Assembly: GCA_020431405.1 (NCBI GenBank)
Contig: JAGQIK010000416.1
Location: forward strand, 1 to 59,101
Direction: 5' to 3'
Length of the DNA: 59,101 nucleotides
Origin: Myxococcales bacterium
GTDB taxonomy: Bacteria; Myxococcota_A; Polyangia; GCA-2747355
Below, in pieces: positions 3 through 5,001 of the stretch. The notes below the pieces were generated by a model. It saw nothing but the letters and a program-made list of their open reading frames with translations. It had not been told where the DNA came from and ran no database searches. The translations under genes and the position numbers were made by a program. Every line of letters starts with the position of its first letter. Position 1 is the stretch's first letter.

Positions 3-2270
3 GACAGCGCCGCCGCCAAGCGCGCGACCATCGCGCCGCGCGACGACAACGCGCTGCCCGCCTCGCTGCGCGAGCAGGTGATCTGGAAGACGGCGCCGCA
101 GATCGGCCGACACCTGCTGCTCTCGTCCGCGGGCGGATATCGCGTGGTCGCCAACGCCGGCCGCAGCCCGCTGCTGCTGCTCGGCCGCCATGGCCGCGGG
201 CGCGTGGCGCTGCTCGCCGTCGACGCGGCGCACGCCAGCAACCGCGACCTGCGTCTATGGCCCTACTTCAACTACCTGCTCTACGCGCTCTCGGTGCACG
301 GCGCGCAGCGCGAGGCGGCGACCTTCGCGCGCTGGCGCTACGCCCCCGTGCCGTCGATCAGCGCGCTCTGGTACATCGCGCCGATCCTGCTGCTGGCCTG
401 GATCGGCACGCTGGCGCTGTTCTTCAAGGCGCGGCGCCACGCGCGCAAACACCCCGAGCTGCTCGAGACGTTCTTTCGCGACGCCGCCAAGGCGCCGCAG
501 CCGCGCTCGGCGGCCGCCGGGGTGAGCTGGCGCTCGGTGGGCTTCGTGCGGCCGCTGGCCGGGTTCCTCGCGCTGGCTGCGCTCTTATTCGTGCTCTTCG
601 CGCCGTTCTATTGGCTCACCAACATCGTCATCCCCAACGACGTGCAGCCGTTCCCGCAGGCCAAGGGCATCTGGGAGTTCGCCTGGGAGGCGCTGCAGGT
701 AGCGTGGTTTCTGTTCGACGCCGGCACCTTCGTCGCGTTCGTCAAATACTTCGCCGAATACCGCGTCAAGGACCCGCGCGAGGCAGTGCGCTCGGCGCAG
801 TTCTTCGTGTGGTGGCAGATCCTGACCGGCCTGGTGCAGGTCACCTTCGCCTGCGTGGCGGCGATCGTGATCCTGCCGCACACGCGCTACGGCTACACCT
901 CGGGCTTCGTCATCCTCGTCGCGCTGGGCCAATACCCCGGCTTCTTCGGCGTGGTGACGTTCTTCTTTCAGGCCTACCAGCGCTTCGACTACAACCTCAG
1001 CCTCGACCTGCTGTCGGACTGGCTGCTGCGCTTCGTGCTGCAGATCCCGTTCGTGCTGCTCTTTCGCGCCTGGGGCGCCGCCAACCCGCAGTACGGCGAA
1101 GCGCTCGGCGCCGCCATCGGCATCGGCGTCGGCTATCACGTCTCGGCGCTGATCACCTTCGGCATCGGCGTGCTGCTCTACCGCCGCCTCGGTCTGCGGC
1201 TGTTGCCGCTGTTCATGGCGCACTTCGATCGCAGCACCGCCAAGCGCATGCTCGGCTACGGCCTCAAGGTCGTCACCGGAAAGTTCTTCTTCCGCGCGGC
1301 GCAGACCATCGACAAGGTCGTGATCTCGCTGCTGCTGACCAACTACACCGAGTGGCTCGGGCTCAAGTCGCAGATCCACTACAACCTGATGTTTCTGTTC
1401 CCGGTGGCCTATCGCTTCTTCGAGACGGCGATGGCCGCGCTCAGCGAGGCCTACGGCAACGGCAAGCGCGTGCTCACGCAGTACTACGTCGTGCGCTTTC
1501 TGCAGGTCGGCGCCCTCTACAGCGTGATCGGTCTGTCGCTGATGGCAGCGCTCGGCCCGCTGTTCGTGCGCGAAGCGATGGACCCGCAGTGGGCGCGCGC
1601 CGCCAACTACCTCGTCATCGCCACCGCCATCGGCGCGCTGATGGCGCCGGCGTGGCTCAGCGACATGCTGCAGAAGGGCGCCGGCCGACCCGAGCTGTTC
1701 GCCGGCGTGCTCGGCGCCGAGCAGGTGCTGCGCATCGGGCTCTTCTTCGTGCTGATCCCGAGCCTGCAGTTCACCGGCTTCTATCTGGCGCTGCTGGCGA
1801 CGCTGGCGATCAAGGTCGTCGGCGGCTGGACCATCAACCACTTCGTGATCGTGCGGCTGCGCTTCTACGTGTGGGGGATGCTCGTCGCGCCGCTGCTCAC
1901 CGGCGCGCTCAACTTCGCGCTGCTGCGCGCCGCCGCCGCCGTGCTGCCGCTCTCGGGGCGCTGGCCGGTGGTGATCTTCTTCTTCGCAGCGGCGCTGGTC
2001 TCGTTTGTGGTGTGCTTCTTTGCCTACGGCCTGTTCGGCGGCTTCGACAAGGCCTTCGCCGCCGAGCTCGACGCCGCCTCGCGCATGACGGGCCCGCTGC
2101 GGCCGCTAACGCGCATGTTCTACGGCGCCGCCAGCCTCGGCTGGCGCATCAGCCCGATGCACGATCGTTACCCGGTCACCATCGAGCCCGAGGCCAAACG
2201 CGAAGCCGACGAGCTGCAAGCCCTCGTCGCCGCACAAGACGCCCAAGGCGCCGAAGACAACGGCGATTAG
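3..2270 (+). CDS. GATase-like tail fused to polysaccharide flippase (5' partial)
   Basis: The reading frame is open to the left edge, so the true start lies outside the window; the first in-frame start seen is a GTG at 78. About residues 26-105 of the visible part (GRHGRGRVALLAVD, then WPYFNYLLYAL) resemble the end of a glutamine-amidotransferase-like domain found in large membrane proteins. A membrane segment follows at about 123-141, then a linker. From about residue 183 to 680 there are a dozen or more hydrophobic segments in the pattern of Wzx/MATE-like lipid-linked polysaccharide flippases. The tail is charged and cytoplasmic-looking. A role in moving a polysaccharide precursor across the inner membrane is inferred; the fusion is unusual. 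The stop codon overlaps the end of the small minus-strand gene on the other side. I am confident it is a real gene, less so of the substrate. Confidence 0.8.
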   Translation, partial: DSAAAKRATIAPRDDNALPASLREQVIWKTAPQIGRHLLLSSAGGYRVVANAGRSPLLLLGRHGRGRVALLAVDAAHASNRDLRLWPYFNYLLYALSVHGAQREAATFARWRYAPVPSISALWYIAPILLLAWIGTLALFFKARRHARKHPELLETFFRDAAKAPQPRSAAAGVSWRSVGFVRPLAGFLALAALLFVLFAPFYWLTNIVIPNDVQPFPQAKGIWEFAWEALQVAWFLFDAGTFVAFVKYFAEYRVKDPREAVRSAQFFVWWQILTGLVQVTFACVAAIVILPHTRYGYTSGFVILVALGQYPGFFGVVTFFFQAYQRFDYNLSLDLLSDWLLRFVLQIPFVLLFRAWGAANPQYGEALGAAIGIGVGYHVSALITFGIGVLLYRRLGLRLLPLFMAHFDRSTAKRMLGYGLKVVTGKFFFRAAQTIDKVVISLLLTNYTEWLGLKSQIHYNLMFLFPVAYRFFETAMAALSEAYGNGKRVLTQYYVVRFLQVGALYSVIGLSLMAALGPLFVREAMDPQWARAANYLVIATAIGALMAPAWLSDMLQKGAGRPELFAGVLGAEQVLRIGLFFVLIPSLQFTGFYLALLATLAIKVVGGWTINHFVIVRLRFYVWGMLVAPLLTGALNFALLRAAAAVLPLSGRWPVVIFFFAAALVSFVVCFFAYGLFGGFDKAFAAELDAASRMTGPLRPLTRMFYGAASLGWRISPMHDRYPVTIEPEAKREADELQALVAAQDAQGAEDNGD

Positions 2271-2449
2271 CCCTCGGGCGGCGCCTCGCGCTCGCAGCTC
2301 CCCCCGCCACAGCCACTCTGCTTGTCGCCCCGCGCCGACCGGCGCGGATTGGGCACCGCTCAGGTAGGTACACCGAGCCTGGGCAGGATCACGAACTGCA
2401 GGACAAACCAGATGCCGAGTATGGCGAGGGGGGCGAGATAGTCACTCAT
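2267..2449 (-). CDS. candidate small selenoprotein, one TM segment, in-frame UGA
   Basis: An ATG at 2449 opens a 29-codon frame, MSDYLAPLAILG then a hydrophobic run ending ILPRLGVPT, which reads as one membrane helix. It stops at TGA (2362-2360). If TGA is read as selenocysteine, the frame continues for 30 more residues with a Cys-rich end (SGCGGGSCE) and stops at TAA (2269-2267), giving 60 aa. Nineteen bases after the TGA begins a 4-base loop GGUC on a perfect 7-bp stem, the geometry and loop core of the E. coli fdhF SECIS. A GAGG lies upstream of the ATG. From memory, small membrane proteins ending in LPKLGVPT-Cys are known in related bacteria, which would make U a replacement for Cys; I could not check this. 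If TGA is a true stop, it is a 29-aa single-span protein (2360-2449). Confidence 0.6.
2330..2347 (-). promoter_or_regulatory. bSECIS-like hairpin downstream of in-frame UGA
   Basis: On the minus strand CCGCGCC-GGTC-GGCGCGG forms a perfect 7-bp stem with a GGUC loop. The loop begins 20 nt after the last base of the UGA at 2360. In E. coli fdhF the GGUC core sits 19 nt after the UGA on the same count. An outer GCC/GGC pairing with a one-sided CAAU bulge is possible. There is no U tract, so it does not look like an intrinsic terminator. GC-rich hairpins are common in this genome, so the hairpin is persuasive only together with the frame around it. Confidence 0.55.
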
Positions 2450-2530
2450 GGGCTGCAACCTCGAATCGCAAAAAGACCATAGCGCATGGCCATGACCGAC
2501 GGTACGCCACCTCGCGAGATAGGGTTATTG

Positions 2531-3750: not shown

Positions 3751-5001
3751 GTGGCTCATCGTGACGACCTCGACGCCGCCCTCGCCCACATCGCGGCGCT
3801 CGAGCGCGAGCTAGGCGACACCGAGCGCGCGCTCGCGGCGAGCGAGCACGACAGCGACGACAAGACCAAGGCGCTCGACGCGATGCGCGCCGAGCTCGAG
3901 ACGCTGCGCGCGCGCGTGGCCAAAGACAAAGACAAAGGCACGCCGCGCACCAAACTGCGAGCCGCCAAGCCACGCGACGAGCCGCCCCGCGAGCGCGGGC
4001 TCGGGCGATTCGCGCCGGTGGGCCTGCTCGGCGGCGCCATCGCGTGCGTCCTGCTCGTCTACTTCGTCGTCTTTCCGAGCTGCGCGCGCCGCGCGTCGCG
4101 CACCAAGGCCGGCACCGTCGCCAGCCTCGACGTGCTGCCCGACGCCAACGGCACGCCGCGCCTGCTGCTCCAGACGCGCGTCAGCTACAACGGCTTCGCC
4201 CACCAGCACTTTCGTTTCTGGCGCGTCGACATCATCGAGGCCGCGAGCGGAAAACGCCTCTCGCGCTTCATCGACGAAGAGCCCAACGGCGGCCACCTGT
4301 CCGTCGTGCAAGGACCGCCCGGCAAGCTGTGGTTCGTCTACGACAACCGGCGCCGCTTCGAGGTGCGCTCGGCGCGCGACCTGTCGCTGCTGCACGGTTT
4401 CGCGCGCTTCAGCGCCGCCGCACCGAAGCTCGCCACGTCGATTCACGGCCCGATCCGGATCGAGCCCAACAGCCGAGCGCTGGTGATCACGCTGCTCAGG
4501 GGCTCTCGCGTGATCGCGCACGCGTCGGGCACCGTACGCCCCTTCAAGCAACCCACCGCACGGCTCGACTCGCTCGCCAGCTATGGCTCGACAACCACGC
4601 ACGCCGTCAACATCAACGGCGGCGCCAGCATGTACTTCGCCCGCAAGGATGGCTCGCCCAGGCGCGGGCTCGCGCTCGGCGGCACCAAAGCGCCGCTGCC
4701 AGGCGCAGCCGACCTGCTCGAGCCCAAGTTCATCACCGAGCGCAACACACACCGCGCGCTCGTGCTGCCCGGCGACGGTGGCTTTCTGATCAAGCGCTAC
4801 CCGACGCTCGGAAAGCACGAGACGATGCTGGTCAGCAGGCTGCGCCGCGACGGCACGCTCGGCTGGTCTCGCGAGATGCCCGACGCGAACATCAGCTGGG
4901 CCAAGCTGGTCGGCGCTCGTCTGGTGCTCGTGCGCGGCGGCGCGCAGATCCTCGGCATCGAGCCAAAGTCCGGCAAGATCGCCTGGCGGTACCAACCGTG
5001 A
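3751..5001 (+). CDS. membrane-anchored coiled-coil/PQQ-like propeller protein, copy 1
   Basis: A 416-aa protein of unknown function. It starts at a GTG and begins with an acidic-basic coiled coil (about residues 1-60, LDAALAHIAALERELGDTE), then a basic stretch, one membrane segment at about 92-110 (LLGGAIACVLLVYFVV) and a large outside part of beta-strand repeats. The last strands, GIEPKSGKIAWRYQP, match the tryptophan-docking motif of PQQ-like/BamB propellers. So the N-terminus is probably cytoplasmic and the propeller periplasmic. Its stop overlaps the GTG of the next gene by four bases, and the two are paralogs. The upstream AGGAG overlaps the second WYL operator, so the regulator might also affect this gene. 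Confidence 0.75.
   Translation: MAHRDDLDAALAHIAALERELGDTERALAASEHDSDDKTKALDAMRAELETLRARVAKDKDKGTPRTKLRAAKPRDEPPRERGLGRFAPVGLLGGAIACVLLVYFVVFPSCARRASRTKAGTVASLDVLPDANGTPRLLLQTRVSYNGFAHQHFRFWRVDIIEAASGKRLSRFIDEEPNGGHLSVVQGPPGKLWFVYDNRRRFEVRSARDLSLLHGFARFSAAAPKLATSIHGPIRIEPNSRALVITLLRGSRVIAHASGTVRPFKQPTARLDSLASYGSTTTHAVNINGGASMYFARKDGSPRRGLALGGTKAPLPGAADLLEPKFITERNTHRALVLPGDGGFLIKRYPTLGKHETMLVSRLRRDGTLGWSREMPDANISWAKLVGARLVLVRGGAQILGIEPKSGKIAWRYQP

Follow-up and report, generated by a model that had tools for sequence, protein, structure and literature searches.

A short Myxococcales membrane protein gene with an in-frame UGA predicted to encode selenocysteine

The window analysed here is a contig of 59,101 nucleotides from a Myxococcales bacterium. 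A short gene within it contains an in-frame UGA at codon 30 that is, judging from sequence comparisons, almost certainly decoded as selenocysteine (Sec) to give a selenoprotein of about 60 residues; selenium itself has not been shown directly in the product. Three lines of evidence, namely homologues that carry either UGA or a cysteine codon at this position, the Sec machinery of the host and family-wide tests of the hairpin that follows the UGA, support the same reading in a preliminary description of this DNA.

Results

The gene and its setting

The read-through product is MSDYLAPLAILGIWFVLQFVILPRLGVPT-U-AVPNPRRSARGDKQSGCGGGSCEREAPPEG (translated with TGA = U). Its coding strand is the minus strand, with the ATG at 2449-2447 and the TAA at 2269-2267 (Table 1). 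The preliminary description gave no strand, and its account of a frame that meets TGA at codon 30 and then runs on to a TAA was confirmed on this one; read on the plus strand, the frame at 2267-2449 is meaningless. A gene for a WYL-domain regulator lies upstream on the same strand, and a glyoxalase-like gene is also found upstream. Downstream is a convergent plus-strand gene for a large membrane-protein-like product, and the stops of the two genes overlap.

Two other local features were seen. A terminator-like hairpin with a T-run occupies 2467-2497 on the minus strand, after the WYL regulator and just 5' of the selenoprotein gene; about 0.7 such sites are expected by chance. Farther along, two adjoining plus-strand genes (3751-5001 and from about 4998) have similar starts, in which HRDDLDAA is followed by a charged coiled-coil-like stretch and then a membrane segment. 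Together they resemble a tandemly duplicated gene for an uncharacterised protein, and the gene at 3751-5001 has no Pfam match.

Table 1. Positions in the window of the gene and its predicted elements.
Feature	Position	Strand	Basis
Gene for the selenoprotein: 60 codons, of which one is UGA (read as Sec), then a TAA stop	2267..2449	-	Translation with TGA = U; homologues with a TGA or Cys codon there
UGA codon 30, predicted Sec	2360..2362	-	50 TGA, 9 TGC/TGT and 0 TAA/TAG homologues; host Sec machinery
Putative SECIS apical hairpin CCGCGCC-GGUC-GGCGCGG, 7 bp stem, GGUC loop 2337-2340	2330..2347	-	Covariation, shuffles, fdhF likeness, bSECIS model
Predicted single transmembrane helix, residues 5-24	2378..2437	-	AlphaFold2 on 52 sequences; conserved hydrophobic stretch
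GAGG, probable ribosome-binding site, 9 nt 5' of the ATG	2459..2462	-	Read from sequence

Homologues carry UGA or cysteine at codon 30

Relatives were found in 14 of 59 related genomes with the read-through protein as query, and searches with an alignment detected homologues in 32 of 379 genomes of the phylum and 43 of 318 genomes of the class. One further relative on a Vicinamibacteria (Acidobacteriota) MAG contig is the sole basis for any spread outside the phylum of the window, and no homologue was detected in the viral contigs and plasmids searched. In all, 59 homologues were gathered. The codon at exactly the Sec position is TGA in 50 of them and TGC or TGT in the other nine; TAA and TAG do not occur there. 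The search pattern permitted Cys or a stop at this position, so the restriction to these codons is partly by construction; profile searches were free of it. Complete reading was possible for 47 of the TGA members and all nine Cys members, the three other TGA members (L081, L149 and L151) lying outside the search pattern. A weak match, L099 (G040:C678), was set aside as probably spurious, the true homologue of that genome being L157.

Conservation extends to both sides of the UGA codon. Across 52 aligned members P23, G26, T29 and Sec/Cys-30 are invariant, L22 and Q18 are nearly so, and the segment after the UGA reads VPxPRRSAR. Two subtypes can be told apart. In one, TU(A/M/S)VPxPRRS(A/T)R is frequently joined by a Cys at the C-terminus or close to it; the other has TUMSxxC, in which the Cys lies five residues past Sec. 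At least one Cys follows Sec in 40 of the 47 UGA members. The forecast that Cys homologues would carry LGVPT-C was borne out as LG(V/I)PT-C, with LGVAT-C and LGMST-C as further forms. The CGGGSC ending noted earlier is not itself conserved, although it is common for a Cys to lie close to the C-terminus or at positions U+4 to U+7. A phylogeny of 61 columns did not resolve whether the Cys forms arose once or repeatedly.

These comparisons bear on a rival reading, in which the UGA is a true stop, the product is a transmembrane peptide of 29 residues, and untranslated sequence or a regulatory hairpin follows. The standard code does end the frame there, and the helix is already complete before the UGA. 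Yet conservation at the protein level continues past the codon, and substitutions after it retain an excess at third positions (37/70). The nine Cys homologues read straight through, and in two of these the frame leads at once into a DUF302 domain; no TAA or TAG occupies the position in any homologue. The final stops of the 47 UGA members are mixed (TGA in 31, TAA in 8 and TAG in 8), and a mere stop at codon 30 would therefore not always be TGA. The preliminary description had proposed that homologues all ending at GVPT, with nothing conserved beyond, would refute read-through; they do not end there, and conservation past the UGA is strong. We consider the truncated peptide very improbable.

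Many members end in a second UGA (…GC-UGA). It was rejected as a further Sec codon because L064 and L138 end at the same point with TAG (…RGC) and nothing conserved was seen beyond it. Separately, one contig (L075, G290:C94) holds the selenoprotein gene as a tandem duplicate on the minus strand (1972-2124 and 4827-4979), and its two copies share 93% identity ahead of the UGA and 100% across the SECIS region.

A SECIS-like hairpin is maintained in UGA members

The published model of bacterial SECIS elements (bSECIS) specifies a loop of 3-9 nt with a G in one of the first two positions, a stem of 4-16 bp, a spacing of 16-37 nt and an energy of at most -7.5 kcal/mol (PMC13188914). The hairpin in the window meets this model with a 4 nt loop, seven Watson-Crick pairs plus one G-U pair, a spacing of 19 nt and -15.1 kcal/mol. 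The same is true of 213 of the 1234 TGA triplets (17%) in this GC-rich window, so the hairpin alone proves little. A GGUC loop on at least seven Watson-Crick pairs at the right spacing, in turn, follows only this TGA among the 1234. The arrangement resembles the SECIS of E. coli K-12 fdhF, in which a GGUC-loop hairpin also follows the UGA. Counted from the first base of the UGA, the loop starts at 22 nt in the window and at 21 nt in fdhF, and the earlier statement that the loop core is displaced by one base relative to fdhF is therefore right. The protein encoded by fdhF, formate dehydrogenase H, is unrelated to the window protein.

Stability of the single sequence gave limited support. Dinucleotide shuffles of the window sequence alone yielded z = -1.47, too weak to serve as proof of a SECIS, and synonymous-codon shuffles of the window gene alone, which keep the protein and local codon usage, gave p of about 0.02. 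Across the family the result was much clearer. The native stem averages 5.85 bp in the 47 UGA members versus 3.47 bp in their synonymous-codon shuffles, and 2.78 bp versus 3.10 bp in the nine Cys members; the bSECIS model is met by 38 of 47 UGA members versus none of the nine Cys members. Among 30 distinct GGUC hairpins, compensatory changes occur at all seven pairs, and the number of cells changed on both sides is 19 versus 4.5 ± 1.8 after shuffling, with none of 500 shuffles as high. The covariation signal is lost when the register is slid. By a simple stem measure the hairpin is weak or out of place in some members, among them L069, L076, L091, L095 and L098. The significance of the hairpin rests on family-wide covariation and not on the stability of the window sequence, and the family tests are decisive.

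A recurring double change in the stem, from C-G to U-A, goes with a change from Ala to Thr in the protein (RRSAR/RRSTR), and the RRSAR motif is not kept intact in the Cys members fused to DUF302. We infer that the RNA element, and not the protein, may largely explain why the RRS(A/T)R motif is retained.

The host encodes the Sec machinery

The genome that contains the window (G000; 11.2 Mb, 96% complete) encodes SelA (483 bits), SelB (353 bits, over the curated cut-off) and SelD (359 bits), together with a tRNA-Sec with anticodon UCA that was identified by both Infernal and ARAGORN. Absence of selA, selB, selD and tRNA-Sec had been named beforehand as an outcome that would refute the assignment, and all four were found. 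A single in-frame TGA also occurs in the host selD gene (L033, contig C59), which makes SelD itself a probable selenoprotein.

In the phylum sample, SelA was detected in 27 of 29 genomes with a UGA form versus 246 of 379 genomes overall (Fisher p = 3e-4). The two exceptions are G019 and G066. G019 has SelB and tRNA-Sec, so its missing SelA looks like an assembly gap. In G066 (L084, 94% complete) neither SelA nor a true tRNA-Sec was detected, and the only selB signal is a selB-like fragment that scores below threshold and lies where a contig starts; its Rfam match to tRNA-Sec (50.5 bits) is a tRNA-Ser according to ARAGORN. In another UGA genome, G351, the SelA match is weak and no SelB exceeds the cut-off. 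In three genomes with Cys forms (G043, G057 and G035) no SelB exceeds the cut-off, and the tRNA search yields tRNA-Ser but no tRNA-Sec. SelA is present in G063, G080 and G097, and Cys forms therefore also exist where the machinery persists.

Read-through without Sec insertion, by near-cognate decoding or a reassigned TGA, would produce the same frame, but we regard it as extremely improbable, given that Cys codons are the sole alternatives to UGA in homologues (subject to the constraint of the search pattern), that UGA forms co-occur with SelA whereas Cys forms lack the hairpin, and that TGA is the ordinary final stop in most UGA members.

A predicted one-helix protein with Sec near the membrane

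AlphaFold2 models built on 52 sequences have a mean pLDDT of 86-91 over residues 1-20 and are confident over residues 1-30, with an unstructured tail beyond. Positive residues are missing ahead of the helix, whereas the tail after it is rich in Arg/Lys. Under the positive-inside rule, this places the Sec side in the cytoplasm. We infer, with good support, a one-helix N-out/C-in protein in which Sec-30 would lie within a few residues of the membrane, on its cytoplasmic side; this topology is untested. The window protein does not qualify as a thioredoxin-fold selenoprotein with UxxC or CxxU, being predicted as one helix and a disordered tail with neither motif. Eukaryotic SelK and SelS are likewise small single-pass membrane selenoproteins with Sec on a cytosolic tail, as proposed here, although their Sec lies near the C-terminus and is decoded differently.

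Thioredoxin and DUF302 genes recur beside the family

Neighbouring genes were named by Pfam on representatives and counted as tblastn matches to those representatives. A thioredoxin gene (PF00085) lies on the same strand within 1 kb upstream in 16 loci, and a DUF302 gene (PF03625) adjoins 14 members on the same strand within 1 kb and stands 1.7 kb away in L138. In two Cys members (L079 and L085) DUF302 is fused at the C-terminus. Rhodanese (PF00581) comes next in six loci, in one of them after the fused gene, and a DsbD_TM-thioredoxin gene follows five Cys members. Beyond 2 kb the neighbour queries have almost no matches, which makes this a local association. Many members stand without a partner gene close by.

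The window copy is among those with none of the partner genes alongside. Elsewhere in the host, contig C623 (L160, 5931-6999) bears a thioredoxin-DUF302-OsmC-like cluster without a selenoprotein gene; the sole DUF302 gene of the host is located there, directly after the thioredoxin gene and before the OsmC-like gene. The partner genes persist in the host genome although the selenoprotein gene stands elsewhere.

Relation to known families

NCBIfam and Pfam contain no selenoprotein model or otherwise relevant model that matches the window protein (P0002) or the other members scanned, PHROGs gave no match to the window protein, and a PDB sequence search found no relative. The window protein itself also lacks a match to DUF302. 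None of the 119 bacterial selenoprotein families in a 2026 catalogue (PMC13188914) fits when compared by description, nor do the new families of deep-Sep. The catalogued families share with ours a Sec aligned with Cys homologues, a bSECIS and redox neighbours, but none is a one-helix membrane protein with the motif of the window protein (PMC13188914). We designate this previously uncatalogued family LPxLGV[P/S/A]T-U; an existing unpublished annotation is not excluded, as RefSeq lay outside the search.

Discussion

A redox role is suggested by gene neighbourhoods. A membrane-tethered selenol at the cytoplasmic face may act as a redox partner in a thiol or sulfane-sulfur pathway alongside thioredoxin, DUF302 and, frequently, rhodanese. 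The selenol would take up an oxidising equivalent or sulfane sulfur; Sec would then form a selenenylsulfide with the C-terminal Cys of its own chain or with a partner thiol, and reduction by thioredoxin would reset it. Cys versions may do the same job beside the DsbD-like transmembrane/thioredoxin protein. This setting recalls the CcdA/DsbD transmembrane thiol relays, from which the family differs in having one helix, a single Sec or Cys at the conserved position and no DsbD_TM match. A thiol-redox partnership with thioredoxin, inferred from gene neighbourhoods, seems to us rather probable. A specifically sulfane-sulfur role is a more tentative inference, which we hold less likely than not, and the pathway chemistry is untested.

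A selenoprotein with a role outside thiol or sulfane-sulfur redox, such as binding a metal or metalloid (mercury, arsenic) at the membrane, appears unlikely, though it deserves consideration: several selenoproteins of the membrane have been given roles in metal handling (PMC13188914), and the members without a nearby partner gene leave room for it. Against this stands the identity of the recurrent neighbours, which are thioredoxin, DUF302, rhodanese and DsbD-TM, with no metal-resistance gene recognised among the recurrent neighbour clusters.

Taken as a whole, the redox proposal describes minimal membrane selenoproteins, not described before, that would supply a selenol at the inner-membrane surface to an uncharacterised thioredoxin-DUF302-rhodanese sulfur-redox pathway and whose RRS(A/T)R motif would be largely RNA-maintained; we regard the chances of this complete picture as even. 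The family adds a selenoprotein that ordinary annotation would cut to a 29-codon stub and miss. About every twelfth genome sampled from the phylum, and every seventh from the class, carries it. The DUF302 proteins, whose function is uncharacterised, gain a firm genetic partner. Finally, with a hairpin that comes with its Sec forms and is missing from its Cys forms, the family offers a compact case in which to test how SECIS constraints shape protein sequence.
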